Part shown: piece by piece, positions 35-26,046 of the stretch
How positions within the stretch are numbered: the first letter of the stretch is position 1
How the letters are laid out: every line of letters begins with the position of its first letter
Assembly: GCF_016859285.1 (NCBI RefSeq)
Contig: NC_053403.1
Coordinates: 3,726,948-3,790,947, forward strand
Origin: Xiphias gladius
Taxonomy: Eukaryota; Chordata; Actinopteri; Istiophoriformes; Xiphiidae
Direction: 5' to 3'
DNA: 64,000 bases
Position numbers and translations under genes: made by a program
Notes under the pieces: generated by a model
What the model was told of the DNA's origin: nothing
Databases searched by the model: none
What the model saw: the letters and a program-made list of their open reading frames with translations, nothing else

Positions 35-410
35 CTATTGCTCCGACTCCCTGGCCGCTCTCTGCTGCTCCAACATCGACCGGATTGCAGGGGACATCAC
101 GGTGGGGGACACGGCTGGGGTGAAAGGTCGCAAGGGGTACTGGGCATTTTTACCAGGGACATAAATGCACTGGAAGTATCTCTGGCCTGTGAAGAGAGCA
201 AGCAGATAGATGATTGATAATGGGATGGTTTAAAATAAAAGTAATCAGGGGATAACGGTTGATTATAGTGATGGAGAAGAAAGTCATTAGGGCCTATTTA
301 ATTGCTTATTTTCCCCTCAGTAACTACCCATCACTTACAATGAGAACGGTTTCAGTAACCCTTACCTGGTTTCTTCTTCTCTGTAGTATTGTCCTCCGCT
401 TGGGGCTCTT
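35..410 (-). CDS. trdn: trdn exons 29 and 30: C-terminus and stop
   Basis: Exon 29 (410-366) codes KEEPQAEDNTTEKKKPG between TCTCTTGCAG and GTAAGG. Exon 30 (186-35) follows CTCTCTTCACAG and reads GQRYFQCIYVPGKNAQYPLR, then PFTPAVSPTVMSP, ending RAARESEQ and a TAG stop at 37-35. CIYVPGKNAQYPLRPFTP matches the human tail CVYLDGYNGYGFQFPFTP residue for residue in length, including the conserved Cys that forms inter-chain disulfides in mammals. The fish tail is about 20 residues longer. The 3' untranslated region continues off the left edge. Confidence 0.92.
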
Positions 411-3400
411 CTGCAAGAGATAGGAATAAATCAAATCGAGATTTTGGCATCATGTGCGACTGTGCGTGGGGCAGAAAGAAAGAGGAGACACGCATGCCAG
501 GAGGGAAAGGAAGAAGGACAGCCTGGAAAGAGGAAGAGAGGGAAAAAGGTTTTCATTCAACAAACACGCTGTGATGTTCTTCTGAATGATTTCTCTCTTT
601 ATATTTCCTACTGAAATGAAAACCCATTTTTGCTTTAGTTACCTCCCTGACATTTGTTTTGATTTGTGTACTTGTCATTGTCATTAACAGAAATATGGCA
701 CATAAATGTAATTTCTTTTTCCTGCGACGGTTGTGCCTCCTTTATTGTATATTGGTGTTCTCCGGTGGACGGACATTTTTGACTGTAATGAGGGACAAAC
801 ACAACACTGAGTGCGGGGAGCTTGCCAATGACTCGGCACAAGTTGGAATAGCATGCACAAAGAATAGCAACTGTTAGGATTCTCAGTTGTCGGTAAACTG
901 ATGCCATAGAAACACCCACGATGCTTAGACACTGTTTCCTCAGACATGTCCAAAACGGTTTTATCCTCTTTTGAAAGATACATAAAGATGTGCAATATCT
1001 GTATCAATACGGTTTATATTTCCTTACAAAAAAAGGAAGGAGAATTCAAATTTCATTTTTGTTTTTAACTACGATTTATAGAGGGTATGTTGTTATTTCA
1101 ATCAATCTGCAATGGGACCTTTTGTCATTAAAACTGTTCAAGGTCAGTTTCTCTCAAAAATGTAGCTGTTGTCCTTCAACAGAACTGTTGAGAATTGCTT
1201 TGTGGACAAAGGAGATCGTTTTGAATCTTGGTTGGTGTCGTCCATGAAGTAGTGAAATCTCAAAAAATAACATCTTGACAGACACATGGACGTCCGTTTT
1301 CCCCTGCTTTCCCAGTTTAAGCATCTGAAAACAACCCGAGTCCAAAATAATGCAGCAAACTCAACCTATGAATTTCAGCGTGGGTCAGAGAAGTCAAACA
1401 ATTTTTTGATTGCACTCCAGTAGACAGGAGCCACTGTGTGCGGCGTTGATAACAGAAAAGTGCAGCGTCACTCAGGGCAGTGGGGGAGTGTTGATACTCC
1501 ACTGGATGACTCAATAAGAACAGAGCCCTAATACCCCAATTTAATGGGTTTTGGTTCATGGATTTAATCAATCCGGCTAAGTATTATTATTGCTATATCC
1601 ATCACAGGCCATAATCTCTTCCATAACTCAAGGCAGTTCAAAAGAAGGAGTCTCGTCTAAATCAGCTCATCTCATTAAATTCTAATCTCTTATGTTCCTA
1701 ATCTCATTAGGAGCGGACGTCTCTTCATATTGAGTTAACCAGTGGAAAGACGGTGAAAATTAACTGAATACCTCAGGCCTTACGGGAAGCCGTCTTTGCA
1801 TTCTCTATGAACAACAAGCATATGGTATAAAGCGTTACTGTCAAGAAGTACAACAGTTAATGGCATCACTGTGTTTCTGTGTCGTTTCAGTCATCAGGTG
1901 ACAGAATATCCAGAAGTACCAAGTTGGATTCATTTAGGCTTGAACATGTTTCTCCATTCATCCAAGAGGCTTTATCAGTTTGTTCAAGTGGTGGGAATTT
2001 AAGCTTCAGGGCATTTTAGATGTTAAATGTTTGTTCAATTCAATTCACACTTGTGTCACACGATAACGTTGTCATAAACTCTTCTGTGCACCCAAAATAG
2101 TCCGACCCGAACCGGAGGTCTGTGGTGTGCAGCCCCATGCAACACATTTCTTTAGGGGAAATGTAATACTGATCGAGTTATGTTCCTTTTCAACATATCA
2201 GCGAAACATTCTGCAGAATCTTCACTGTCAATCTGTTATTCCAACAATATTTGTTGTGCCAGATTAAGCATGATGGAGGTGCTTACTGTCTGCTTACTTG
2301 TTTAAAGTTAGGGAAAGACTGTGGCTTGGTAGGGGTTAGGGTTGAGTACTAGAGTCTGAAGGTCGATCGGACACTAAGATACTGCTCAGATGTTTATTTC
2401 ATAGCTCTGGAAAGTTATCACATCAAGAACTATTTTATCTTTCATTGCAAGGATCACAAGCTAAACAGTAGAAATCCCCAAGTACCTTTTTGCCGAGTCG
2501 TAAGACCTTCAAAAAAGACCCTTCCTGCATTAAAACTAAACCATAGCAGTATGCATCTTATTATTGGTAAATAGTTGCTAATTAGTGGAATTCATAAGAG
2601 AGAGGGTTGAGCAGAGACACCAGAAACAGAAGCAGAGCGGAGAATGCTGAATCTGGGTCCTAGCTTTACGACGTATCCCCTGTTTCTGGAGGGATGAGGC
2701 CTGGAGCGCATTGCTACGCTGAGAGATTTGAGGCTTCACTAACTAACATATCTACAAACAGCATGCCTTCATTACGGTTTTTACTCCCTGAAAGGAGAGA
2801 ACAAAGTTCTCTATGTCAAACCTAAGCAACAATAAAAGACGCCCGAGACACCACATATGTAGCACATGCGGTGCCTGACACCCTTTAACACGCGGTTTGA
2901 CACCAATTCACGCTTGAATCACGCAGCTCCGATGACTCCGACATTAACAGCTCACTCGACCTTAACAACCCACAGGCGACATGATCGACCCAAAGAGGTT
3001 TTCAAGCCTGAAATGTTTTTCCAGTAGAACTAACAGAGTCTCTTGGATGAAGAGTACTCCTGGAAAAACAACACCGTCCACATTTGAGTTCACAGAAGCG
3101 TTCATCATTATTATGGTGGCCTGATATGAATGGCACTGGACATGGACTGGACTGTAAATAGCTTTCACGCTCTCACTTACTAGCTTGTGGTGGTTGTTTT
3201 TCTTTATCTAAAATTTGAGAGGGGGGAAAAAGGAGAGAATTTGATGACTGTCAGATGTACACAGCACACATTATTCACTTTCTAATTGTAAATCCATACC
3301 TTGAGCCTTTTCAGCCTTTTCTGCTTTGCCTGTAACAGAAAAGACAGCCCTATTACAGCGTGCCAAATAACTCTCCATAATTGTGGTGTACATTTAATAT

Positions 3401-5569
3401 TCCTACGATATTTTTCCCCTCCCGGTGTAATACAGCTTGACACGTCCCTAATTAGAACTTTATGATGCATAAAACAGCCCATTTAATCACATAATCTGCG
3501 ACTGTGTTTCCAAGAGGTGTGATCTGTCCCGAAAGATGTCAGTAGAAACTTAACATTTTCTCTGTAGCTAAAGAATGCCTCGTCAAACTTCTGTCACATA
3601 CTGTCCAGGTCTTGACATGACCAGGAAATAGATACTAATGTCTTGAGGTAGAGCTCGCGAGAAACAGAATCAGTGCAATCAAACATTTGTTCATGACCAT
3701 CTTGTAAAATTTGGAAACCACTCATTGCATTTTTTTTCGTTCATTTCAAAACAAGTAGCATTATGCTGCCTTCAAATCTGCCTCATGGGGTTGTATTCTC
3801 ACTGTGGGAACTTCCCGACTTTGCGGTTCAACTACTGGAACGTGACCGTAAAAAGTTGTTCCATATACTACAAGTGCTGCTGGAGGTTTGACCAGGTGAG
3901 TTATTCTAGCTACATTTTTCAAATTTTGTGGGCTTTGAGAATTAAAAAAAAAAAGACATTTTGGAAACTACCCTCAGTTGCCGTCTTGGAAGAATTAGAT
4001 GAGAAGATCGGTACCACTCCCGGGCCTGTCCGGTAGACATGAGGCCAGCTTAGCATAAAGAGTAGGAATATTTGTTGGCAGGGAGCGGCACCTGCCTGAA
4101 ATCTCCGCAGGTTTCCTGGCAAGCTCCCGGTGTCAAGCAAGACAAAACAGCACAGCACAGAACCGCCTTTAACACCACAACTTCTTACTCACTTAGACCT
4201 ACGCTAAGCTAACCTTCACCTGGTCGAGCTCTACTTCTAGCAGACAGACGCGAGAGCATCTTCAATCTTCTCATCTAACTATCGACGAGAAAATGAATAA
4301 AGCTCTCCTCCAAATGTCGAACTATTGCTGTATAAAGGTCAGTGTACAGTCTGCCACAGCTCCTGAGCTTTGGGAAAAGGTATCCTCCGAAAATGAGGTT
4401 GTGAATTCCACATCGGAGCGTCATTCAAGTGGACTCTCATGAACACAAGACCCCACTTGAAGGCACCGTTATCTACAGGATATGGATTCAATATGATGTG
4501 TGTAGTGTACAAACGAAGAAATACAAGCACACATACATATATTAAAATGAACACTTACTTTTCTTCTCTGTCACTAATTCTGATCTTGTCTTGGCTGACG
4601 ATAAAAAGACATAAAAATTAAGAGGTGCAAGTTTCGGTACAAGAGCCCCGCTCTGCTCCGCAGAGAAATCCCAAAAGCTCAAGGTAGATAGTTCAACAGG
4701 CTGATGAGTCACCTGGTTCAGACGAAGATCTGGCAGGTTTCTCCTCCTTGGCCTGAGAGGTAACATTGGCCCTTTTGACAGCTTCTGGTCTCGTTCTCAG
4801 TCTGATCGGCTGTGGACGCGGTTCTGGATCTGGATCTGTTTAAGACACGTTAACACCTAGATTTAAATTATATCACAAGTTAATGTTTAGCATCTGCATA
4901 AACTGAAAAGATAAGGCAAGTGAAAATTTGCGCCGTATTGGTTGATCAAAATCTTAAATCAAGTACAGCCAGAGTTTTACCTTTCTTGGCTGTGGATGCC
5001 TTGGCCTTGCTCTTGACAGGTGATGCTTCTGAGAGGAGCAAAATAATTAGTTTCCAGTCATCTCTCACATCACTGATATGAAGGATGACTGACTTTCTGC
5101 AAATTAATGAACATCAGCGTGTGTAGTTACCTGTCTTTTCAGAGGCTGGTTTCCTCTTCTGTCGTTCGGCTGCAGGCTCTAACATAATGAGGAAAGATCT
5201 GTGATTAGTGGCCTGAATAATTTGTTTTCTTAGTAAAATATTAGCTGTTCCTTCACATTAAAGAGGGAGGCTCCCTGCATTAGGTTTCATATTTTTCTAT
5301 AAACACCGGTGGCTTAATGATGTTTACCTGTCTTAGCAGCCGCAGCAGTTTTGGTTTTCTCTTTTACAGCTGGCTCTGTAAAAACAAAATATTTTAGCCA
5401 AATTAAATATATGAAAGAGCTTAATCCAGCTTGTTTTTTTTCGTAATGTATACATTTCATATTCTACCAAAATGATCATCACCTTTCTTAGTTACTGTAG
5501 GACTTTTGGTTTTCTCTTCTTTTGCAACTGGCTCTGTCACAACAAATACAATGAGTATATTCTAAGTTT

Positions 5570-5600
<31 letters not shown>

Positions 5601-8600
5601 TATACACATATATATACATGTATATATACATCAAGATACATGGATCCATTGTTAATAAGGTATTTACCTTTCTTTGCAGTGGCTGCTTTGGTTTTGTCTT
5701 TTGAAACAGCAGCATCTAGAGTTAGCAAACGTGTTGAATTATGTTATTCATATCTTACTCAAGTGTATAAATCTGTCTGAATACTTACAGCCAAGCAACG
5801 CTCAAATTGCTATCTGTATCATTCATAACAACATGGAAATATACAGCAGTGAAAACACCCTATTATCCGGCTGTAAACATAAATTACCTTTCTTTGTTTT
5901 CGCTTTGGCTGCTGCTGCTGCCTCTGAGGGGATAATTGGAGTGAAATGGCCATGCAGAGTTAATTTTCCGTAATGAATGCATTCATACAGCACACTGTGT
6001 CATTGTACATCACTGTTAGGTGCTGCAGCTGTAGTTTGTTACAGGGAATATTCCAGTTAGCTGACAATATTAAGCATTTAGTGGATCTGGGGAAATCATA
6101 CAGTTCAATTTTCTTCTTAGCAGCTGGAAAATTGTATTTTTCACTGCAGTAATTAAGAGAAAAATCATTATGTATTTGAGTTTAAATTAATAAATCACTT
6201 GTACCTTTCTTGGTGGAGATAGCCTTCACTTTGTCCTCAACAGTCACTGGTTCTTTAATGAAAAGAGTTTTGATAAAAAATTTTTTTAGTTAAATCTTTC
6301 TTCAAAAGCAAACATTTAACTCTTAATCATTCATTCATATTCGGAGGCTAAGATAAGTGTTTATATTGTAAATGAAAAAGTTTCCCCACATTTAAGAGAA
6401 ATTATAAAGATAAGATAAACTTCCAAACTCTTCCTCACCCTGGACAAGAGCTGCAGCTGGCTGAGCCTCAGCAGCTGGAGTCTGGACCTCAGCCTGAACA
6501 GGAGCCTCTTGTTCTGGGGCTTCTGGCTGCACAGGCCGGAGTGGTACAACTGGTTGAGCTGGTTCTGGTTGAGGCTGCATCACTGGCTGCAGTGGCGGTT
6601 GATTTGCCTGATATTGTGCATAGAGCGGCTGCATCGGTGGAAGCGGTTGTTGTTGATAGAGAGGCTGCATGGGTGGAGGCGGCTGTTGTTGATAGAGAGG
6701 CTGCATCTGTGGAGGCGGCTGTTGTTGATAGAGAGGCTGCATCGGTGGAGCACCTGGATGGACGGTCAGAACAGGAGCAGACGGAGCTAAAAAACAAATC
6801 CAAATTATATGTTTTTATCTTCCGGCAGAGGAGACAAGAAAACTGGGGAAATATATGATCACATTGGTCGGAAATCATATCACAGGAATAGTCTGATACT
6901 GATGTTATATCACCTATCACTGCTACGACAACGGTGTTGATACCTGACATGGTCGGAGGAGGGTACGGGTTGTCTGTGACGATGTGATGAACTGGAACAC
7001 AAAGAGTTAATCTGACATTTTAACAGGTTAACATTTGGAGGTACATAGAGGAGATCGGCATGTTTGCAGCAGGCCGTCAGAGTCGTCCAATCAGATATTT
7101 ATTTCCCCTGCGTTATAAATTCCCCGAGTGTTTCCAAATTCTTTGTCACTTACTGTACCAGCCAGGCGGGGACGGGCAATAGACTGGTGCCGGTCTGCAT
7201 GGGCCAACTGAAACAGATGGAAGAAAATATATGTTGGTTGTTTGTATCATCTGAAACCACAGTTTGGTTTTCTGTAATAAAGTGATCATACAGTCCCTCA
7301 AATTGACTACATGACAACAGATATATACTAATAATAATATAATATAGTATATTTACATTTTAATTTTGATGTTTTTAGATCATAATGAAAATAATAGGGA
7401 TACCTTCTTGTCCAGATTCTGGGACCTCTTCTTGTTTTTTGGTCACTGTCTCTGTCAATATAAATGGTCAGATGTAAAAACAAGTCAGCCTCACGACGTC
7501 CATATCTGTGGATATATCTATACACCATCTACCAAGTCTACTTTTGCTGTCTCCTGTCACAGAATGAGCGTAAATACGACTTGAATCCATCACCTGTTTT
7601 GAGGGTCTTGGTCTTCTCCTCTCGCTTGGCTTTTTGTTGTAAATTCAAAAGAGAAAACATCCCGTTAATTAAAACTGTAACAAAATCGTGACAGAAATAG
7701 TGAAAAAGCTTAGTTAGAAAGGTGCACTGTATATGAGAAAGTCTGAGTACCTCTAAGAAGAGCAGGGATTCTCCTGATCCTCCTGATTTTCGGCTCTAGT
7801 TCTGCAATTCTGGGAAGAGCTGGATACAGCACATGCACATAATTTCACTCCTTACTCCACAATAAGAACAATAAGAAGTATTAATACATACATTTAGTGT
7901 TGTCAAGACAAAGGTGGTATACAGATGGTATTGTGCAGTGTTCAGTGTTACCTTTCCCTTTTGGCTTTTCGTCCGTCCTCACAGCTTCATGGTCTAAAAA
8001 TAGAAATTGAACTGGAAGTCCTGCCGGTTCGCGGTTTTTATGCCTCCGCGGACCAGTCAAGCAGACCAGCCAAGTGACAGTTTACATCCATGTTTGTCCA
8101 GACACATATAATATTGTAGGTAGTGAAGCCGTTGAAGGAATTTAACAAAAGGTACTAAGTGTATTTTTTTCATAATTAGCAAATGAGTTCTTGAGTTATG
8201 GCCAAAAACATGTTTTGGGAGTTCACAATGAACATGACCTTTGACCTCTGACCATCAAAATCTACTCGGTTCTTCATTGTGTTAACAAGTCAAAGGAACT
8301 ATACCTCGCTACGCTTCACGCTGCTTCAATGAAGTTATCACTAGTTGTACATTAACAAGTTTCATCATTTTAGATGGTTAGCGACTTTCCTGCCCTGAAT
8401 TCTGCCTCTACAGTAGCATTTACTCCCGATCCTGCCTCCAGCCTGCTCCATCAACGAGTATTTAGTTTTAGCTTAGAGGCGTGGGCTGCTCAAAAACTAC
8501 AATGTCAACTTCATTATCATACATTAACTTTAATTTTCATTTGGACTCGAAGAATGTGTTTTTTACGAGAAGTTTTGGAATCCCTTCAGTCAAAACCTGA

Positions 8601-11600
8601 AATCTTTACCATTACCTTTTTTCCTTCTCAGAGCAGCAACCCTCCTGAGAACATCTGAAAACACAAACATGAGATCACAGACTCGAAGGTACAGACGGGA
8701 CACTGGGCTCATCACAGTGATCTACATCTGCCACCGCTCCACACGGAGTAGGATACAAACCTGCATTTATCATATCAACCCGAAAATTATATTCTAACAC
8801 CACTAGCAGGTAAGAAAGATCATTTTAGTGCAATAACTCAAAGACAAAATCTTTCGTCTACAGTTTCCGCTACTGAAATGAATCTTTATGCAACAGGTGC
8901 GAAACTATCAAAACCTTTTCATGTGAAACCAATAAATTAACACACCGTTCGTGGCCAGAGCTGTTTCTTCTAATTTGATCTTGAGACCAATATCACATTG
9001 TGCTATTAGTCTCATAATGAAATGTGATTATACTCGCCTTTCCTAACCAAACTTTAAAGCTATCTGTGATGAATATATTGGTGTTTTCTATAAATAAATT
9101 GTTGAAACATACTCAATTAATTCCAGGGCAGGAAAAAAAACTGTTTTCCTGCAATAAATTAACTTAGTAAGTAGGTGTAGTGACCTAAATTGTTCTTTGT
9201 GATGCATATTACTGTCTATATTATATATGAAGTTTTTTTTGGTGCTGTTTGGGTTATTTAAAAAAAATACCTGATTTTACCTGTCTCTGCTCTTTTGTGA
9301 AAATTTGATTTTGTTATTAGTGGCAATCTGGGGAAACAACAAATGGGTCTCCATCTGCAAATCATACTGGTCTACACTCCAGGTACCTAGATAGTAAACA
9401 ATACCTAACACCCTTTAACATAAAAATAAAGTAACCAGTGTAAGTAAACGTATTCAAATTAAGATGAGATATATCCAACATTATAGAGTCTCACAAACCT
9501 TTTTTCTCTGCGATCTTGATGACAGACTCTTTGGTTTTAGCAGAGTGCATACAGGGACACACTGAAATGAAAAAGCAGACAGTTAAAGTTACACCGAATC
9601 TTAACGGGATAAAATAGTTGTAATTGTCCTCAGTCCTGACCTGTGGGTTCGGTCTTCGCCGCTTCCTCCTCAGGTTCAGGCAAAGGCTTAATCACATCCA
9701 CCGTCGCCTTCTCCTCACCGTCGTCCTCATCGTACTCCTCTTTTTTGTCTTCTGGTTCATCCACAGATTTCTGTGCTGCAGGCAACGGCTCTTCATCCTC
9801 TCCCTCATCTTCCTCCTCAGGAGCAGCAGGCTGACTGGTAACTGAGGGTGAAAGCAGCAAGTGGCTCCAACGTGGATTTGTACTCATTACAAAGGATGGC
9901 TGATCACACTCACTGTGGCAAGAAAAATAGCTATGGACCAGTTTTCCTACTAAACCTGGGATAGGAAAGATACTAAAGGGATAGTTCTAAGTTTTAGGTC
10001 TTTATTTTGTTCCCATTACTCAGGCGGAACAAATGTGGGTTTCATGTTTCATAAAGTCCGTCAGTCTTTTCCTTCAGGCTCAGCTAATGCAGGACAAATC
10101 TAAAATCTGTCAAAGGCAAAAAGAAAAAAGTACACTACTGTACAATTCAGCTAAAACATGACTCCACGGAAATCTATCAACAAATGTGTCATCTGACCTG
10201 TTGAAGGTCTTTGTGATTAGAAAAACTTAAATAATAAATTTGGTGCTTTAAATCAATTTACATGAATGATATATGTACAGTAGAGGGGAAATAACGACAG
10301 TTAAATTATGTTGGCTTGGATGAACCATTCAGTGCATTGATTTGAATGTTTACCTTATTTTATCTTCAAATTTAATTTGATATTGAAGCTAAATTTTTTG
10401 TCCTATACTATAAGGCGCATCGGTTTCTGGATGGCGGGCTACAGCTGTGGTATGACGTGAGATATGACTGTGGAAAGGAAACCTCAGGACACATGAGATT
10501 TCATTTGCTACATAAGTTATGCGTAAATTATAGCGATAGACTTGAGAACTTCTGAATTATTATACAGGATAAAACATGGTTTAATGCACGACAATACATA
10601 AAACTGACAGTACCATACATGAATAGTCCTCTCGAAATACTAAATATCAGATGTATGTACTTTATTTCAGCTACAGTGATGGCACTGCCTATAAATGTTC
10701 ACTAAAGCTTTTCGAAAAAGTATAAAACCCTATTTATAGGGGAGGGAGTTTAATGATGTGTCTGCATGAGTTCTAATTAGCTCGTGTTGCTTAACAGTCT
10801 GTAAAACCCAGAAGCCATGATGGATGTGATACTCGCCAGTTTCTTCTGTTTCTGCCTCCTCAGTCTCATCTTCGTCACCAGCCCGACTGATCTCCTCCTC
10901 TCCCTCACCGTCGTCTGCCTCAGTCTTTACTGCCTCCTCCTGGGCAGTGAACGCTGCTGCAGCGGTGCCTTCAAATACACAGTATAGTATAAATACCAGG
11001 GTTCTCTGCGAAGGTTCACCAGGCCAGATTTAGGATGTTTGAAGGCTCTTTTTTAAGACCACATAGAATAAAACTTAAGGATATAAGTGAAAACCAGCGG
11101 GGATCCTTTAACTCTTGATATTATCTTTATTCATCACAATTTGAATGGACACCTGCCAGGCAGTCAGAAAGTAGTAAAACTGTAACATAAATCAAAATGA
11201 AAGTAATCAATGATGCTGGACTATACCTGCGAGCAAGACGTCATCAACATCATCATCATCGTCCTGATCTTCTCCATCCTCACTAGCTAAGGACTCTGAT
11301 GTGATTATATCTTTAAGTTCATCTTCATCTTCTCCACTGTCAGAAAATGTTTCTTTGTCTTCTTGATCAAAGATGAACTCATACGAGCTGGTATCAATGT
11401 CTTCATCATCTTTGTACTTATCGTCATCGTCACCATCAGTTGTGTCATAGGAGATATCGTCACTGAAGATACTCTCTCCATTGGATTCTTCATCTGTTTT
11501 AAGAGCAATGTCGTCATCATCATCACCTAAGATTCCACTGTCTGTACTCTCAAAGGGAGGGACGACAAAATCCTCCTCCTCCTCCTCTTTATCATCATCA

Positions 11601-14600
11601 TCATCATCATCATCAGTCCCCTCTTCATTGAAATAATCAGGTTTGTCATGATCGTCATCGTGTTCAGCGTCAAGGACAACGTCTTCGTCGTGGTCACTGT
11701 CTTCCTCGTCATCTGCAAAGTGCTCAGAGGAGGCAACAGAGATGTCCTCATCTGATTGGTCCAGATCAACATCATCATCCTCATCAGTGTCTTCAGCAAC
11801 TTTGACGTCTTCTTCCAGGTCTTCATCGTCAACTTCAACAGCAGGCAGAAGGGGAAGGTCCTCCTCTTCTGCAAGCTTAAGATCGTCAATATCCTCATCT
11901 TCCTCATCCTCACTAGTAAGAGTGATAGGAAGAAGATCAAGCTCCAGGTCGTCATCGCTGTCTTCCGCAATGACATCATCGCTATCCGACGTTGTGGCAC
12001 CCTCCGCTATACTATCATCTTCATCATAGTCATCATCCTCCTCTTCACTGGAAAGAAGTGCAGATTCACTGAGGTCTGAGGTATCAGTGAATGCATCATC
12101 AGTGGCATCGTCGTCGTCATGTTCTTCATCTTTTTCATCATCGTCATCAGTTTGAGTTATGCCCTCGTCACTGACTTTGACATCAGACTCAGAATGAGGA
12201 GACACTGCCGACTCTTCATCTTCAGAAGTGGAAACAGGTTCAGGAGAAACTAAATGATCATCGTCATCATCCTCAGCATCAGCAGCTGCAGGTTCCTTAG
12301 CAGACTCTTCTACATCATCTTCATCAGCAGCATCTGGCTTCTCTGCCTCTGCCTCATCATCTTCATCGTCTCCGTCCATCTCCTCTTCTGCAGCCTCCTC
12401 GTTCGATTCACCTTCATCGTCTTCATCAGTCTTTGGTGCAGCTGCTTCAGTTTCCTTCTCATCTTCCTCATCTTCATCATCTTGCTCCACCTCAGTAGCT
12501 ACCTCCTCCTCTTCTTCCTCCTCCACTCCTTCTTCGTCCTCTTCTGGTCCTTCCTCCTCTTCCTCCACTCCTTCCTCCTCCTCTCCTTCAGTTTCCTCCT
12601 CCTCCGCTCCTTCTTCCTCCTCCTCATCCTCCTCATAATCTTCCTCCTCCTCATATTCTTCCTCCTCCTCATACTGTTCCTCCTCCTCATACTCCTCTTC
12701 CTCCTCTAGTTCTTCCTCCTCTTCTGCCGACTCGTCCTCCTCCCCAGCAGCCTCCTCTTTGTCTCCCTCCTCTCCCACCTCCTCTTCCTCCTCCACAATT
12801 TCAACCACTGGTGGTTTATTCTTTGCTTGCATCTTTATAACTGAAAAATAAAAAGTTAGTGTCGTTTCTTACTATCGTAGTAATGAAATCTCAACATCGA
12901 GGAGTTTAGCAGATCTGCCTGTGTACAAATTATGTCTATACACTGTTTATAAAACTAGGAGTATAAGTTAAAGTGAATAGCTCAATAAAGTAGATTTGTT
13001 TTCAGATTTATGTTAACATTAATTCATTGGCTATGTAGACCAGTCCATTGTAAACTGTACCTATTCAGATCTTTTTCTACAGTTTCTTTTGATGAATAAT
13101 GGCAAGACAATGAAACACAGCCAGCCTCAATCTCACGGGGGTCACATCATACTCTGCGGTTACACTCACACTGTTTTCAAACTCACACTCCTGAAGCAAG
13201 GTGGCATGAATGGAAAACTTAAATCTTACACATTAAGAATATTTATTGTGCTGTAAGTGGTGATGAAATGTCAGATACTGAGGTGAACTAAAAATATACC
13301 ACGTACCACAGAGTACCGTAATGTCCCTAACTCTGTCTGTTTGTCGTTTGGTGCTGGGCAGGTAGTGTGCACTGGGTATAACCAGAGCTTATTCAGTGAA
13401 AACAGCTGCCTGCTGCTGCTGGAAACGACACTGACTAGAGTGTTGAGAGTGAACAAATCCGCAAAGTTGTATGCCAGAGAAGCAAAACAATGCGCTGAAA
13501 GACATTAAAACACTCCGTAAAGCTGAGGGAAACTTCTGAATCAGGAGCTTATTCCCTCTCTTTTCACATTATACACATTCATTTGATCCATTTTAAATAT
13601 ACAAATATAGATTAGTGCAGCTTCAAAAGGGAGGAAAACTAAGAGTTAATACAATAAAAAGGTTACAACACCAAAGCCATCGCTGAAATGCAAGAGGATG
13701 CTAACACTTAGCTTGTGAAGGTGCAATTAAAAGGAAATTAGCATCCAATCTACCAATCCAGCTACCTATCCCAGTCAAGAATTCAGCAGTTCCCATGTTC
13801 TTGTAGACTATAAACAATCAAGCTCAAATGTACGTGAATGTACCAAACAAAAGCTACAGACCTTTGCTTCGAGACGGTAGAAATTCCCCTATAATACAAA
13901 GAGAGAAATGGAAAATCAGCGTCACAACAAAAGCAAAATACAGATTAAACTGGATAAAGCACGCTAGAGTTTGATCCATTCAAACACACTACATTATCAC
14001 TCTTGTTGGAAGTTTAATATATCGGTGGCAGCAGTTAGCATAGAAAGTTAGTGACAAACAAAACCTTCTTACATGAAGATGTAACTATATTAGTGCAGCT
14101 AATAATCACAAACAACACATAGGTTTTTACTGTCGTTGAGTACTGTGATCTCCTGTTGTTTCCTCCATTAGTTTACTGTTACGGGGTGGGGAACAGGACT
14201 CATTAGTCATTATCTATGTAGAGTTAATCTACACAGTCCCAGAAATACAGCAATTGTAGTACCTTGAGTACCTTTTGCTTTCTTAATCTTCACCTCCATT
14301 TCCTCCTCCATTTCCTCCTCCTCCAACCATCTTGAATCTTTGAGATGGTTCATACATATAGACAGTTTAAAACTACCATCATAATAATAATCATCTGGCC
14401 ATGTTGTCACCTAGATCCATGTATTTTTCTCTATGGTCCCTCAGCCACACACTTTCTGTGAGCTTTTAACTAAACAAAGAAGTCATAAAGTCTTGTCTGT
14501 GAAGGTAGCCGCTTCTTGCAGTGGCATCATTATCCATCTAACGTCTTCATCTTAAGTTTTCATCTGTTGATTTCAGTTTATTAGGCAATGTTTGCTATCC

Positions 14601-17600
14601 TCGCACATCAAAGGTTTTGCAAAAAAGGCAAAGATTTTGGCCTCATTAAGTCACATCAAGAAAGATTGCGGAACATGTGCCGTAGATGGTAATGAATTAG
14701 TCGAAGCAGCATCTTTTTGTGGGTTTTTAAACAATCTTTGAGATGCACTTTAGGCAAACCAGACTTGTAACTGTGGCAAATACATTTCTGGGTGTGGATT
14801 ACTGGGAGTTAAAAATGACTTCTTCTTAGGGTTGTACACTCTAACTCCCCAGAGAAAAAAATCATGTGAAGAACAGCACATGTGATGAAGCGCAGTGTGA
14901 ACAAGACGTTCAGAAAGCAGAAAGCATTCATTTCTTATTCTGCAGCTGCATGATCATTGCAAAAGGAAATAAAATCCAAAGCTACAGTGATACAAACCTT
15001 TTTTTCTCACTGCGTATAGATTTCCTAGAGAAGAGCAGAGGGAAATGAGTAACTGTAGTACGAGCACTAACATGTAATAATTTGATCAGATAAGCTGTGA
15101 TCATGTTGTCCTGTTTACTTTATTTAACAAATCCAACGCGATTATGAAATAGCTCCGTTTTTTTGCAGCTTAATGTGTGTTTTTCTACCGTTTGTAGAGT
15201 GACTGTACCTTCGTCTTCTTCAGGAGCGATCAGGTTGGCAGCAAATTTTAATATTACACTGATCACGTTTGCTGATTCCTCCACAGCATCATTCACCACC
15301 TTTATGGGGTCTGAGCTGATCTTGCTGAGGCCTCCTGGTGGAGCAGGGACATAAATAGAGGCACACAATCACACCAGAGGATTTAGTCACTGATTTCGTT
15401 TGATTTACCAAACCGAACAAATACATAGCAATCATTTCAGTAGGAGCTTCTGACTCTTACATTTCCTCAATGTAGACACTGCTCTCATTCCTCTGCATTG
15501 AGGAAATGGCCAAAAACATAAACTCTATAGTAAAAGGTTAAGATGAGGTGGGGCAACAGGAACTGAAGTCAAAAAGCTGAAATCTGTATTTCAGAAATTG
15601 ATCAATTTCACGTTAGGAGCAAGGGTAACCTGCCTTCTAGTTTAACTACTGCAACAGGTCTTCTACACAGCATATTGCTGTGCAAATAGCACTTAACAAA
15701 ATCACACTGACCCTAGATCATCGAGTTACTATTCATGTGTTCTAATGTGCTTTTAAACAGTAAAAACCTTATAAAATTACCTCATGATACTAAGGTTTAG
15801 AATTTTCAACAGATTACAAAATAAGATTTCTGCTAGAAAAATATCAAATTTCTGTGTAAATGGCATTATGTACTTGATTTGAACAGCTGAATTTGAGCTG
15901 ACATCAACTCTCTGCTTGTTTAGAGGTTGTGCAGTTGTTTCAATAAACAGACAGCGAGGTTTACATGAGTCTCCCAGTGCTCAGTATGCAGTTGTTTCCA
16001 AGACAGTCTGATGAAGGAGGGCCAGTATTCCCAGTGTAAACACCATCAAAACATGATTTACTTTGAATCATGTTTGTCATTTAGATCCGAATTTCGAATG
16101 AAAGGTTGAGAAACTCTCAACTTGTGGAGATGTGAAAAGGAAGAAAACAGAATATTAGATTTTTGTTGTAGCCATGACGTGATATACATGAACTCTGTAT
16201 GCAAAGTATCAGTCAATCATGATTCCACTTTGGATTTTCATCCTTATTAAACACTTAAACCCTCAACTTGCCCATTCCCATTGTGTTTTGCATATCTCAC
16301 AATATTATTAGCCGTGAACGCAACCAGGTCTACACAAATGGCAAACATGCAAAGTAAACCCTCGGAATTATTCTAAAAAACGATAGAAACAAAACACAAA
16401 GGTATAGCCTTAAAATGCATTTTAAATCACTAAGGTTGAGATTTCAGAAGAGCTGGATTTCACTCGTTTTCTAGACAGGATCTTGTCTAGAAAATTAGAT
16501 AAATGAAGAACAAATCAAGTTCATCTGAAGTTCAAATATTCAAAACCAAGTTTTTCTGGTTTTCTGGAATCAAAATACTTGCGTTGGTTTTTCAAATATT
16601 TGAACCTGAGGTTTCTTATCCATACGGAAATATACAGGTAACACAAAGACATTTGAAATGGACAAGCTCTTTCTCCTCCTCCTAGAATAATGTCAATATA
16701 AAACCATGAACGTAATACCAGACAGAAAGCAGCTTGTACTTGGCATCCTTCTAAAGATCTACAGACTAATCTGTGAAGGACTGTCTAACATTGATAGCTC
16801 AGCAGTCAATGTTAGGTTGTTAGTTTTTCTATCAGCAAGTTAGTAGCAGGTAAGGTGCCTTGCCTCTATGCCCTGAATCCTTCAAAACCTTCCTGACGCC
16901 AGGAGGTGGGTGACCTGGTTGGATGAGAAACACAGTGGCCATAAGCAAAGACATTAAGCACAGAGCTGAAGCAAAAAGAGGACAGAAGGAGGATGGAAGG
17001 AAAGAAGGAAAAAAGAAGTGGTAGTGTAAGATAAAGTATTTCTGTGTTCACATTGTGATGGTATGATGATGATAAGGTTGTAACAAGCAGACTACTGCCT
17101 GTGACTTGGTAACTGAACATGAATTTGAATGAATACTGTGACGGACAGAACAAAAGAGAAATAGATATTTCTCTTAAAATCAATGCACACAATGATTTTT
17201 CCTCATTTTTCATGCATCCTCGTGTTCGAGATGAAATTGTGAATGTGGAAGATAATTAATCAGCAATATTGTAGTCTAGGAAAAATGCATGGACTGCTAT
17301 GTTTTGCTGATGCTAGGTCATTCCAGTTTTTTGCATGGATTTCTATTAATTTAAGGTGAGAATCATATGTAATAATTTGCAAAATGAAGGAGGATGTTCA
17401 TGTTAGGGTTAGAAAATTGAGTTGGACACAACAGAAATTAATGAAGTTTTGAAAGCATTGTTTGTTTTTATGTTATGTGGAGAAATGGAACCAATAGCTT
17501 TCAACTAAGTGATGACACTACAGATGAACAAATGAACAAGTAAAATTAGTAGATTTTTTTCATCAGGGCAGTCAGATGTGTTGTACAGAAACATAAAGAT

Positions 17601-24800: not shown

Positions 24801-26046
24801 TTCTATGTGGCTATATGAGGAGGAGCCAACCCAGAAGAAAACTTAGGATAAAATAAGTAGGTCTTTTACCACCATTCATTTTCTTGTAGCAAGGAAATAA
24901 TTAGGAAGTAACTGTCAGAAAACAGTTTTATATCCTGAGATAAAAAGATAATTACATTGTTATTGGGAATTAGATTTGGTTTTTTTTTGGTTCTGAAAAG
25001 TTAATTCTCAACCTTTGGAAATAGCTGCTTGAAAAAAATATTTTAATCCCTCACTTGCTTTTTTCAGAGCTTTCAACCAAATGCTACAGTCTACATTAGT
25101 GAATGGCCATTTGCTAAGTTGTTATAGAATTGTTCTCAGTTGTTGTCGCCAGCTGCATTTGCTGATTAAGACCATGATGTGACAGATAACTCCAGAAAAC
25201 CTTGTGTAAATGGACCTTCTGTTAAAATCAAACATAATTTTTAACACACTATTTATGTTAATATCTCAAGAAAAACAGTCCTTATTCAAGATAATTATCC
25301 CTGAATTAAAGGGCCTGCACACCTACACAGGTGCTTTGAGTTATTCTGGTTTACGAGCTCTCTTCAGCTCAAAGGTATTCAGACCAAAGCTGAAGCAATC
25401 AAGCTCCGTTTACTTTTAAGAATATAATGCTTTTCCTACTTGATGTCAAAATCTCTTGTATGAAAAAGGCCTATCATAAGAGTGCAAGTTGTCCCGCCTT
25501 CACAAGTGCATTGAAACTGTCATGGGGCTGTCAATTAGGTACTTGCATGCACAGTGCTGAGATTATGTTTAATCAGCCAAAATAAGTGACAACGCCCGTG
25601 CAGGTGCATCATTGGTGTGTAATTAAGCCGTGACTTTCACGAGGTCTCAAGATAACAGGCTTCAAATCTTTAATGGCACCAACAGCTGCAGACCCTTTTG
25701 TCTTCTCAGACAAAAAACAGTTAAAATGGTATGACAACAATATCAGTTGGTGTGGTTACATGCAACAGGAGGCACAGTGTTGATGCTGACTGATCTTCTA
25801 CAGCACTGTAGATGTCACAGGGGTCTTGAAGCTGCCTTACAAAGAGCAGATACATGATAGCAGCATATTTTTAGATACTTCCAATCATGAAATTCCCCTA
25901 CACACAAGAAAGCACAACGTCACAGGGTCTGTGTGCAAAACAAACATACAGATCTTCATACCTATATTATGAGGCTTCTTTTATGTAATAAAACTGAATA
26001 AAAATACTTGATGTGATGATACTTTACCTTCAATTGCTTCAGTCAT
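35..26046 (-). CDS. trdn: triadin, complete coding gene (30 exons recognised)
   Basis: Triadin is a single-pass membrane protein of junctional sarcoplasmic reticulum. Its luminal part binds calsequestrin and the ryanodine receptor in the Ca2+ release unit of striated muscle. Coding exons, in transcript order (high to low coordinate): 26046-26028, 19152-18940, 15334-15209, 14337-14272, 13888-13862, 12840-11227, 10968-10837, 9841-9641, 9561-9499, 8654-8616, 7993-7952, 7819-7751, 7629-7594, 7451-7404, 7207-7154, 6991-6944, 6786-6439, 6252-6205, 5923-5888, 5715-5668, 5533-5483, 5375-5328, 5178-5131, 5028-4981, 4835-4713, 4594-4559, 3329-3300, 3207-3181, 410-366, 186-35. They total 3,885 bases, or 1,294 residues plus stop. 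All junctions are phase 1. Identity rests on the N-terminal TTTT-VIDSK motif, the membrane segment ending in MFDLMDYK, the SDPIKVVNDAVEE segment, the KEKE exons and the C-terminal tail. Small exons with weak acceptors (13862, 7594) are less certain, and a few tiny exons may be missed. Confidence 0.93.
411..3180. other. trdn intron 28 (about 2.8 kb)
   Basis: This lies between exons 28 and 29. No further exon with good splice sites and phase 1 was found. The sequence is AT-rich and mostly unique-looking. The short open frames on both strands have no coding character. Confidence 0.6.
3181..4835 (-). CDS. trdn: trdn exons 25-28: distal luminal exons
   Basis: Exon 25 (4835-4713, 123 bases) codes DPDPEPRPQPIRLRTRPE and on to EEKPARSSSEPG. 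Exon 26 (4594-4559) codes AKTRSELVTEKK and splices at A|GTAAGTG. Exon 27 (3329-3300) adds SKAEKAEKAQG. Exon 28 (3207-3181) adds DKEKQPPQA with a strong A|GTAAGTGAG donor. The unusual last base A in exons 26 and 28 gives sensible residues (Ser, Lys) when joined to the next exons. A palindromic repeat lies in the intron between exons 26 and 27. Confidence 0.8.
3985..4335. mobile_element. palindromic (foldback/MITE-like) repeat
   Basis: The left part reads TTAGATGAGAAGATCG near 3993, and the right part carries its reverse complement (CTTCAATCTTCTCATCTAAC) near 4260. A GCTTAGCAT / GCTAAGCTAA pair repeats the symmetry further in. Two more copies of one arm occur at about 46330-46490 and 58150-58320. 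The whole is consistent with a non-autonomous DNA element with long terminal inverted repeats, common in teleosts. I cannot name the family. Confidence 0.65.
4981..6252 (-). CDS. trdn: trdn exons 18-24: KEKE exon array
   Basis: There are seven phase-1 exons of 36-51 bases. 6252-6205: EPVTVEDKVKAISTKKG. 5923-5888: EAAAAAKAKTKKG. 5715-5668: DAAVSKDKTKAATAKKG. 5533-5483: EPVAKEEKTKSPTVTKKG. 5375-5328: EPAVKEKTKTAAAAKTG. 5178-5131: EPAAERQKRKPASEKTG. 5028-4981: EASPVKSKAKASTAKKG. Most follow the pattern E-P/A-x-(V/A)-K...K-T-K...K-K-G and look like duplicates of one ancestral exon. Alternating Lys/Glu (KEKE) segments are the calsequestrin- and RyR-binding part of triadin in mammals. Confidence 0.88.
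5576..5635. repeat. poly-A plus (TA)n low-complexity tract
   Basis: A run of A is followed by alternating TA/CA sequence in the intron between trdn exons 20 and 21. Open frames here are artefacts of the repeat. Confidence 0.9.
6439..6786 (-). CDS. trdn: trdn exon 17: Gln/Pro exon with MQPLY tandem repeat
   Basis: This 348-base exon (116 codons) follows a TTTGTTTTTTAG acceptor and ends at a GTGAGG donor. It begins APSAPVLTVHPGAPP and then has four 12-residue units starting MQPLY (MQPLYQQQPPPQ, MQPLYQQQPPPP, MQPLYQQQPLPP, MQPLYAQYQANQ), followed by PPLQPVMQPQPEPAQP and a Glu/Ala/Val/Pro-rich end. It lies at about residues 933-1048. The mammalian protein has a Pro-rich stretch at the matching position but, as far as I recall, no such repeat. 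Confidence 0.87.
6599..6742 (-). repeat. 36-base coding tandem repeat (MQPLY units)
   Basis: There are four in-frame 36-base units inside trdn exon 17. The middle units are nearly identical at the DNA level, and the fourth diverges after MQPLY. The unit length is a multiple of three, so copy-number change would keep frame. Confidence 0.9.
6944..7207 (-). CDS. trdn: trdn exons 15 and 16: Cys/Pro segment
   Basis: Exon 15 (7207-7154) codes VGPCRPAPVYCPSPPGWY and splices at A|GTAAGTG. Exon 16 (6991-6944) continues IHHIVTDNPYPPPTMSG. The joined segment YCPSPPGWYIHHIVTDNPYP resembles the human segment around FCRYMIDIFVHGDLKPG, which holds one of the two oligomerising cysteines and is likewise followed by a Pro-rich stretch. 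The correspondence is by position and pattern and is inference. Confidence 0.8.
7404..8654 (-). CDS. trdn: trdn exons 10-14: small basic/mixed-charge exons
   Basis: There are five short phase-1 exons. Exon 10 (8654-8616) codes DVLRRVAALRRKKG. Exon 11 (7993-7952) codes DHEAVRTDEKPKGKG. Exon 12 (7819-7751) codes ALPRIAELEPKIRRIRRI and then PALLRG. Exon 13 (7629-7594) codes AKREEKTKTLKTG and has a weak acceptor. Exon 14 (7451-7404) codes ETVTKKQEEVPESGQEG. All have GT donors and lengths divisible by three. Exons 10 and 12 are unusually Arg-rich for triadin, where Lys normally dominates. The intron between exons 10 and 11 contains an interspersed repeat. Confidence 0.75.
8015..8345. mobile_element. 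interspersed repeat in trdn intron 10
   Basis: It contains TGCCTCCGCGGACCAGTC, GTGACAGTTTACATCC and AACATGACCTTTGACCTCTG, segments I recognise as a frequent teleost interspersed repeat. No coding capacity remains. The assignment is from memory and the boundaries are approximate. Confidence 0.5.
9499..9841 (-). CDS. trdn: trdn exons 8 and 9: acidic exon and Cys-Pro-Cys exon
   Basis: Exon 8 (9841-9641, 201 bases) follows a TTTCACCCTCAG acceptor and codes VTSQPAAPEEEDEGEDEEPL, later DKKEEYDEDDGEEK, and ends KTEPTG at a GTCAGG donor. Exon 9 (9561-9499, 63 bases) codes VCPCMHSAKTKESVIKIAEK and ends KG at a GTTTGT donor. The Cys-Pro-Cys pair is notable because triadin forms disulfide-linked oligomers in mammals. 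From here on the protein switches from acidic to mixed Lys/Glu. Confidence 0.85.
10730..10739. promoter_or_regulatory. MEF2-type motif in trdn intron 7
   Basis: CTATTTATAG fits the MEF2 consensus YTA(A/T)4TAR exactly and sits in a small palindrome, about 100 bases downstream of exon 7. MEF2 drives striated-muscle genes, and trdn is muscle-specific in mammals. A ten-base match alone is weak evidence. Confidence 0.3.
10837..10968 (-). CDS. trdn: trdn exon 7: Glu-rich exon with a GC donor
   Basis: The frame codes GTAAAAFTAQEEAVKTEADD, an EGEEEISRAGDEDE stretch, and ends TEETG: 132 bases, phase 1 at both ends. The acceptor is GTATTTGAAG. The only donor that preserves phase is CTG|GCGAGT, a GC-AG type site rather than GT. 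Its composition continues the acidic character of the preceding exon. If the GC donor is not used, the exon would have to be skipped, which is also phase-neutral. Confidence 0.7.
11227..12840 (-). CDS. trdn: trdn exon 6: giant acidic (Asp/Glu) luminal exon
   Basis: A single open exon of 1,614 bases (538 codons) sits between a TTTTTATTTTTCAG acceptor and a GTATAG donor and joins in phase 1 on both sides, reading VIKMQAKNKPPVVEIVEEEEE at its start. By eye more than half of the residues are Asp or Glu. The first part is Glu-rich, with imperfect YEEEE repeats; the rest is Asp-rich with Ser, Thr and His. I see no Cys, Arg or Trp and very few Lys. It falls at about residues 151-688, in the SR lumen. 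Human triadin has only a short acidic run here. A high-capacity, low-affinity Ca2+-binding role like that of calsequestrin or HRC is an inference. The open frame, conserved phase and both splice sites argue that it is a real exon. Confidence 0.88.
13862..14337 (-). CDS. trdn: trdn exons 4 and 5: short Glu/Lys exons
   Basis: Exon 4 (14337-14272, 66 bases) codes DSRWLEEEEMEEEMEVKIKK and ends AKG at a GTACTC donor; its acceptor (CTCAAAG) has a poor pyrimidine tract. A second GTAC donor lies 9 bases downstream, so a three-residue longer form is possible. Exon 5 (13888-13862, 27 bases) codes GEFLPSRSK; it has a strong acceptor (CTCTCTTTGTATTATAG) but a weak donor (GTCTGT). Both keep phase 1. They lead directly into the large acidic exon. 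Exon 5 could be optional or spurious. Confidence 0.65.
15209..15334 (-). CDS. trdn: trdn exon 3: membrane-proximal luminal segment
   Basis: This 126-base exon codes GGLSKISSDPIKVVNDAVEE and continues to APEEDE. It aligns with the human segment IAKIGSDPLKLVRDAMEE that immediately follows the membrane helix. The acceptor is TGCTCCACCAG and the donor GTACAG; both ends are phase 1. It ends at the start of the acidic region, where human triadin has only a short Glu/Asp run. Confidence 0.92.
15335..18939. other. trdn intron 2 (3.6 kb)
   Basis: AT-rich sequence between exons 2 and 3. No additional exon with matching phase was found, and the open frames on either strand lack coding character. Confidence 0.6.
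18940..19152 (-). CDS. trdn: trdn exon 2: cytoplasmic tail and membrane segment
   Basis: The exon follows a TTTTACTCCTCAG acceptor and ends at a GTATGG donor. It codes about residues 7-77: a Ser/Thr-rich cytoplasmic tail (TTTT, VIDSK), a TFTDDLCSTFSSP segment, then one hydrophobic helix from about residue 47 to 69 (PLAWILVLALVITW onward), followed by MFDLMDYKTIS. The human counterpart around the helix is TVTEDIVTTFSSPAAW and then VMFDLVDYK. In the family the N-terminus is cytosolic and everything after the helix is in the SR lumen. Confidence 0.93.
19153..26027. other. trdn intron 1 (6.9 kb)
   Basis: A long AT-rich first intron. It contains a CA microsatellite, a short segment like a dispersed fish repeat near 19335-19400 (CAGCTTATTAGGTACATCTAA), and an unexplained minus-strand open frame at 23618-23923. 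Confidence 0.6.
21734..21824. repeat. (CA)n microsatellite with GCAC interruptions
   Basis: About 90 bases of CA dinucleotide repeat, with a short (GCAC)n block near the left end, inside trdn intron 1. Confidence 0.97.
26028..26046 (-). CDS. trdn: trdn coding exon 1 (start codon)
   Basis: This 19-base coding stretch reads MTEAIE plus one base of the next codon and ends at a GTAAAG donor. Human triadin begins MTEITAEG and also has a very short first coding exon, so I chose this ATG over the later in-frame ATG at 19129 in exon 2. The base at -3 is A. Joining it in phase 1 to exon 2 gives MTEAIEARSSTTTTMVIDSK. The 5' untranslated region and promoter must lie to the right, above 26,046. Confidence 0.85.

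Follow-up and report, generated by a model that had tools for sequence, protein, structure and literature searches.

The window analyzed here, a stretch of 64,000 nucleotides of Xiphias gladius DNA (C4:3726948-3790947, from a genome of 690.8 Mb whose protein matches are those of a teleost), carries on its minus strand a long triadin gene with one very large exon of 538 codons that would add a mostly acidic segment. By its frame and its counterparts in other fishes, this acidic exon is truly coding and part of the long-triadin gene of fish; its place in the triadin transcript and its splicing are predicted from sequence. We lean, with some reserve, toward the view that it provides triadin with an optional, disordered Ca2+-binding tether in the lumen of the sarcoplasmic reticulum (SR), similar to that of junctate, for which we infer both the Ca2+ binding and the splicing.

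Reading frame and splice sites of the acidic exon

The initial annotation had described an uninterrupted, in-phase exon at 12840-11227 on the minus strand, mostly acidic and devoid of Cys, Arg and Trp, and this was right in coordinates, frame and length. The frame is free of stops through the 538 codons, while the two remaining frames of the sense strand contain 10 and 120 stops, and the segment contains 150 Glu and 131 Asp (281 acidic residues, 52%), 19 Lys and 7 His. With the exon, the modelled protein goes from 743 amino acids and a net charge of -7 to 1,281 amino acids and -269. In Markov simulations of first and second order, which keep the di- and trinucleotide make-up, the frame was open in 0 of 2,000 sequences each (mean stops per simulated exon, 40 and 43), and the 1.2-kb stretch past the first 400 nucleotides was also open in 0 of 2,000 of each order. 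These figures, together with in-frame junction peptides common to other fish triadins (see below), make it hardly credible that the frame is open by chance or belongs to a separate transcript outside triadin. What speaks for such an origin, and so against the exon, is the donor, CAG/GTATAG, which is only moderate (A at +5). The acceptor (ACTAACTTTTTATTTTTCAG) appears strong, both sites having been assessed by eye against the consensus.

The gene model begins with the transmembrane exon (19152-18940), ends with the last exon (186-35) and has 29 exons in total, joined in phase 1 throughout; the candidate exon 1 and the probable cassette exon of Table 1 come in addition. Exons were hand-picked in phase 1, and the uniform phase of the small ones is thus partly by choice, but the large acidic exon stands on its own frame. 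AlphaFold2, run with an alignment of two sequences, gave a predicted local distance difference test score (pLDDT) of <50 for 492 of its 538 residues and one Glu-rich helix at residues 38 to 78.

Counterparts in fish and bird triadins

Three protein searches, with the N-terminal region (4 hits), the acidic region (none) and the N-terminal region of the carp protein (62 hits, 3 of them repeats), gave a pool of 63 entries, 9 from fish and 54 from birds, many of them representing several isoforms of a single species. Mammals, reptiles, gar and shark were absent from the pool, and the comparison is limited to fish and birds. That the exon belongs to triadin, as first proposed, is well supported by related fish predictions, in which an acidic segment follows in frame after the shared peptide GEFLP[S/P]R[S/K]K. 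In the notothenioid Pogonophryne (P0001), it comes after an identical GEFLPSRSK and is followed by counterparts of the later exons of the window. Four common carp entries (P0003-P0006) are strongly acidic, P0006 by charge only; in P0003 to P0005, whose sequences were read, the acidic stretch follows GEFLPPRKK, and P0004 (928 amino acids) runs past it to the triadin C-terminus. Part of the carp-type stretch is also present in Labeo (z 48-62 against carp); its triadin (Labeo rohita, P0008) bears the evidently mistaken name “putative serine threonine-kinase kinX”. In a tree of the N-terminal region, with 13 hand-chosen rows drawn from the 63 entries, the window and a second triadin-like gene described below, the window groups with Pogonophryne (99/97), and 5 of the 10 inner branches are open.

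No long acidic stretch was found in any of the 54 bird entries, which have net charges of +11 to +72 and no 150-residue window below -16, whereas the protein encoded here reaches -100. The bird sequences that were read (P0010, P0014 and P0020) have at the corresponding place a short run such as WSDDDDDSDE; mammalian triadin is not known to have more than a short acidic run there. As a separate observation, 34 of the 54 bird entries (approximately 1,100-1,230 amino acids; P0026 and others) have a reverse-transcriptase domain (PF00078) in their precomputed annotation, which may stem from a retroelement included in predicted exons or be an artefact of annotation.

Several points weigh against our interpretation. 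All the related proteins are gene predictions, and P0001 is a partial one whose second half, with immunoglobulin-type domains, is probably a fused neighboring gene. The search with the acidic region scored 7,987 candidates and returned none at E 0.001, a negative of little weight because P0001 was beyond its length limit. The long stretch is present in only two other species, the notothenioid and the common carp, and the full stretch is lacking in 3 of the 9 fish entries: salmon isoform X40 (total net charge +21, most acidic 150-residue window -54), Alosa (alewife) isoform X2 (+16 and -15) and Garra (+42 and -5). Either isoforms without the exon or genuine absences may account for these, and inclusion of the exon may therefore be optional or lineage-dependent. 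Homology between the window exon and the carp sequence could not be demonstrated: the score of 417 exceeded the mean of full shuffles (345, z 4.2; 200 shuffles) but not that of 20-residue local shuffles (416, z 0.1), and the second half of the exon gave z values of 0.2 (full) and 1.3 (local; 200 shuffles each). Comparing the notothenioid second half with carp gave a similar outcome (z -0.8 and 0.4; 200 shuffles each). An enrichment of phosphorylation sites in the exon was rejected as well, with 10 S-x-E sites against 10.9 in shuffled sequences and 30 [ST]xx[DE] sites against 32.3. For the carp stretch, the same position in the gene is supported, and it may or may not share its origin with the percomorph one. 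The “fish triadin” at large of the initial annotation is too wide a term, with three entries lacking the full stretch, one having only part of it and the homology to carp undemonstrated.

Two-part structure of the acidic exon

The exon is made up of a Glu-rich first part and an Asp-rich second part that meet at a VSPEP motif (Table 1). The first has 197 residues in the window and 384 in P0001 and the second 341 and 333, respectively, so the former appears to drift in length and the latter to be held. GA-rich DNA resembling the exon gave 161 matches in the genome and, among the matches listed, all the non-self ones are located in the first 526 nucleotides. Being GA-rich and repeat-like, with such DNA common in the genome, the Glu-rich part is weaker evidence if taken alone. 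Aligned to P0001, the Asp-rich part scored 810, whereas shuffled sequences averaged 286 and 324 (z 33 and 25; 200 shuffles each), and identities were found at 86 of the 155 aligned non-acidic and 106 of the 146 aligned acidic residues of the window. Internal repeats were sought in this part and discarded (best pair 62, shuffled mean 65).

This structure bears on whether the stretch is a functionally neutral low-complexity expansion in a tolerant disordered region. The Glu-rich part, with its repeat-like nature, its different length in the two species and its GA-rich counterparts elsewhere in the genome, would suit such an origin, as would the several fish entries without the stretch. However, the Asp-rich part does not fit: its sequence and its length are both conserved in the notothenioid, and it has no internal repeats above shuffles. 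We consider a neutral expansion quite improbable.

The host gene

The N-terminal region has 46-60% identity to its four fish hits (E 2.7e-38 to 9.3e-33), three of them named triadin and one “hypothetical protein, partial”. The Pfam family PF05279 scored 22.5 bits in the modelled protein, slightly below the cutoff of 23, and 25.8 bits at this gene in the genome search; no second Pfam family was found in the modelled protein at E 0.001. The last exon resembles the C-terminus of triadin in the carp and bird entries and, compared by eye with carp, salmon and bird entries, the Lys/Glu-rich exons and the conserved C-terminal exon are present. The gene has the same transmembrane, membrane-proximal, Lys/Glu-rich and C-terminal exons as the long KEKE forms of triadin. 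A stricter scan for exon 1 gave no candidate, and a relaxed one gave two, one of which is included in Table 1.

Other features of the gene include a Pro/Gln-rich exon of 348 nucleotides (6439-6786, minus strand) with repeated MQPLYQQQPPP-like units, a CPCMHS motif (9499-9561, minus strand) common to the triadins of the window, Pogonophryne, salmon, carp and Garra, and GC instead of GT donors in two model exons (at 10837 and 16864, minus strand). A peptide located past the transmembrane exon, CDDPCLPPG, is common to carp, Garra and birds (P0003, P0007, P0010, P0014 and P0020); in the window it had no clear match among the matches listed.

Table 1. Features of the triadin gene within the window
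Feature	Position	Strand	Details	Basis
Candidate exon 1 (MTEAIE)	26028..26046	-	One of two candidates; resembles the salmon start MTEGVEARSS	Relaxed scan
Exon with transmembrane segment	18940..19152	-		Gene model, N-terminal search, genome family search
Probable cassette exon (HPPPGVRKVLKDSGHR)	16864..16914	-	GC donor	Counterpart in P0001
Membrane-proximal luminal exon	15209..15334	-		Gene model
Small exon (NLYAVRKK)	14998..15024	-		Same peptide in P0001
Small exon (GEFLPSRSK)	13862..13888	-	Immediately upstream of the acidic exon	Same peptide in P0001
Acidic exon	11227..12840	-	1,614 nt, 538 codons, phase 1-1, net charge -262	Frame, gene model
First part of the acidic exon	12250..12840	-	197 codons, Glu-rich, repeat-like	Border at VSPEP motif, approximate in bases
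Second part of the acidic exon	11227..12249	-	341 codons, Asp/Ser-rich, scattered hydrophobic residues	Conserved with notothenioid counterpart
Donor read-through	11207..11226	-	6 further residues (GIVQHH), then stop	Sequence
AATAAA	11126..11131	-	3' of the read-through stop; possible intronic polyadenylation	Six-base match, no evidence of use
Next acidic exon in the model, tentative	10837..10968	-	GC donor	No counterpart in P0001
Acidic exon	9641..9841	-	Counterpart in P0001 directly follows the acidic segment	Gene model and P0001
Lys/Glu-rich exons and C-terminal exon (186-35)	35..6252	-	246 residues, net charge +25

Downstream of the large exon, the acidic segment of the notothenioid joins the counterpart of exon 9841-9641 directly, without a counterpart of 10968-10837. 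Because a transcript reading past the donor would meet a stop and then an AATAAA, a short membrane-anchored acidic isoform of triadin, without the KEKE tail, is possible. It could even be that the exon serves mainly as an alternative last exon, yielding a short membrane-anchored acidic protein of junctate-like architecture, which would be compatible with the optional tether that we favor. Besides the stop after six more residues and the AATAAA from 11131, two carp entries (P0003 and P0005, with 710 and 697 amino acids) end without the C-terminal triadin exons. However, these short forms end further downstream than the acidic stretch, P0001 and P0004 extend beyond it, and a six-base AATAAA match is weak, all of which makes such a principal role improbable.

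A second, apparently short triadin-like gene is located on the same chromosome, at C4:15523117 (L013), where two exons were found, transmembrane and membrane-proximal. Two scans of the plus strand, covering the following 97 and 89 kb with filters set by hand, detected no KEKE-like or long acidic exon there, but just one short stretch rich in D/G and two candidates that were short and weak, and the N-terminal tree leaves this gene unplaced. Together with the two-part structure, the repeat-driven change in length and the read-through stop with its AATAAA, this gene goes beyond what the initial annotation had noticed.

A possible Ca2+-binding tether

In-frame splicing of the exon would insert a mostly disordered polyanion of 538 residues after the membrane anchor and before the Lys/Glu-rich tail, within the SR lumen as expected from the known topology of triadin. 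The polyanion would bind many Ca2+ ions at low affinity, like the acidic segments of junctate and calsequestrin, and would thereby place a tethered Ca2+ reservoir beside the ryanodine receptor. Since phase-1 introns flank it, the exon could be included or skipped without a change of frame, which would switch triadin between near-neutral and strongly acidic forms. Its charge might also screen the contacts of the basic tail to calsequestrin or compete with them; the Asp-rich tail of calsequestrin is described as binding triadin through a KEKE motif (PMC8080761), and the acidic segment may for this reason compete with calsequestrin.

As to capacity, junctate is reported to bind approximately 21 Ca2+ per molecule via its acidic luminal domain (PMC10000884) and mammalian calsequestrin 40-50, and a fish calsequestrin is given as having 137 acidic residues of 414 (PMC3511267). 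By simple proportion from its 281 acidic residues, the exon might bind some 80-100 Ca2+, which is a guess and not a measurement. A role of the exon as a Ca2+ buffer, as first proposed, is plausible. Its replacing calsequestrin is not indicated, because several teleost calsequestrins are known (PMC3511267). A bolder version, to which we give tentative credence at best, is that teleost triadin would be a Ca2+ store anchored at the ryanodine receptor, in which a giant phase-1 cassette switches between a near-neutral or basic tether (like that of birds) and an acidic reservoir.

The same charge could instead have a regulatory role, with the polyanion binding the basic KEKE regions of triadin or junctin, or competing with the tail of calsequestrin, and so tuning the assembly, any storage being incidental. 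The reported binding of the Asp-rich tail of calsequestrin to triadin via KEKE motifs (PMC8080761) would agree with this, as would the presence of a basic tail (+25 over 246 residues) within the same protein and the conservation of scattered non-acidic residues in the Asp-rich half, which pure charge storage does not need. Such residues could, however, serve folding on Ca2+ or other partners, and we judge a mainly regulatory function rather unlikely, though of appreciable probability.

The tether that we favor has partial parallels in known systems. Junctate, from a related gene family, is described as an SR membrane protein that binds Ca2+ through an acidic domain in the lumen (PMC10000884), and the gene in the window predicts an acidic domain on a single-pass SR anchor, its luminal side taken from triadin topology. 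Nevertheless, junctate is a product of ASPH, which the gene in the window is not, and in the window a single exon encodes the acidic part, with a KEKE tail after it, so that the likeness is of architecture only. In the genome family search, asph-like exons (a name that follows the family match) were found on C14 and C5, the triadin gene of the window being on C4. Calsequestrin is likewise acidic, and high-capacity Ca2+ binding is expected for the exon from its composition, but calsequestrin has three thioredoxin-like domains and polymerizes, neither of which is predicted for the protein encoded here; no calsequestrin match was found in Pfam at E 0.001, and the exon is predicted to be disordered. 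HRC differs in its His-rich repeats, against 7 His in the 538 residues of the exon. It resembles the acidic segment in being acidic, of low complexity, located in the SR lumen and, as described, interacting with triadin (PMC10000884).

Significance

Triadin is usually viewed as a tether that keeps calsequestrin near the release channel. With a built-in polyanion of 281 acidic residues, approximately twice the 137 in the monomer of a fish calsequestrin, triadin would be tether and store in one. A literature search that covered mainly titles and the openings of abstracts, most subscription papers being outside it, turned up no account of such an extended acidic segment in the triadin of a fish. 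In a knockdown study, zebrafish triadin is given as having about 30% conservation with human triadin, and human cardiac triadin gave just a partial rescue of the heartbeat that did not reach significance (PMC8471218). The acidic exon may matter for zebrafish models of triadin disease, if zebrafish triadin has such a segment. Since the exon could be deleted without a change of frame, fish could serve to ask if the position of the luminal buffer, and not its amount, shapes Ca2+ release. Under the bolder version above, it would be the splicing of the tether, and not solely the recruitment of calsequestrin, that determines how large a store there is at the release site.

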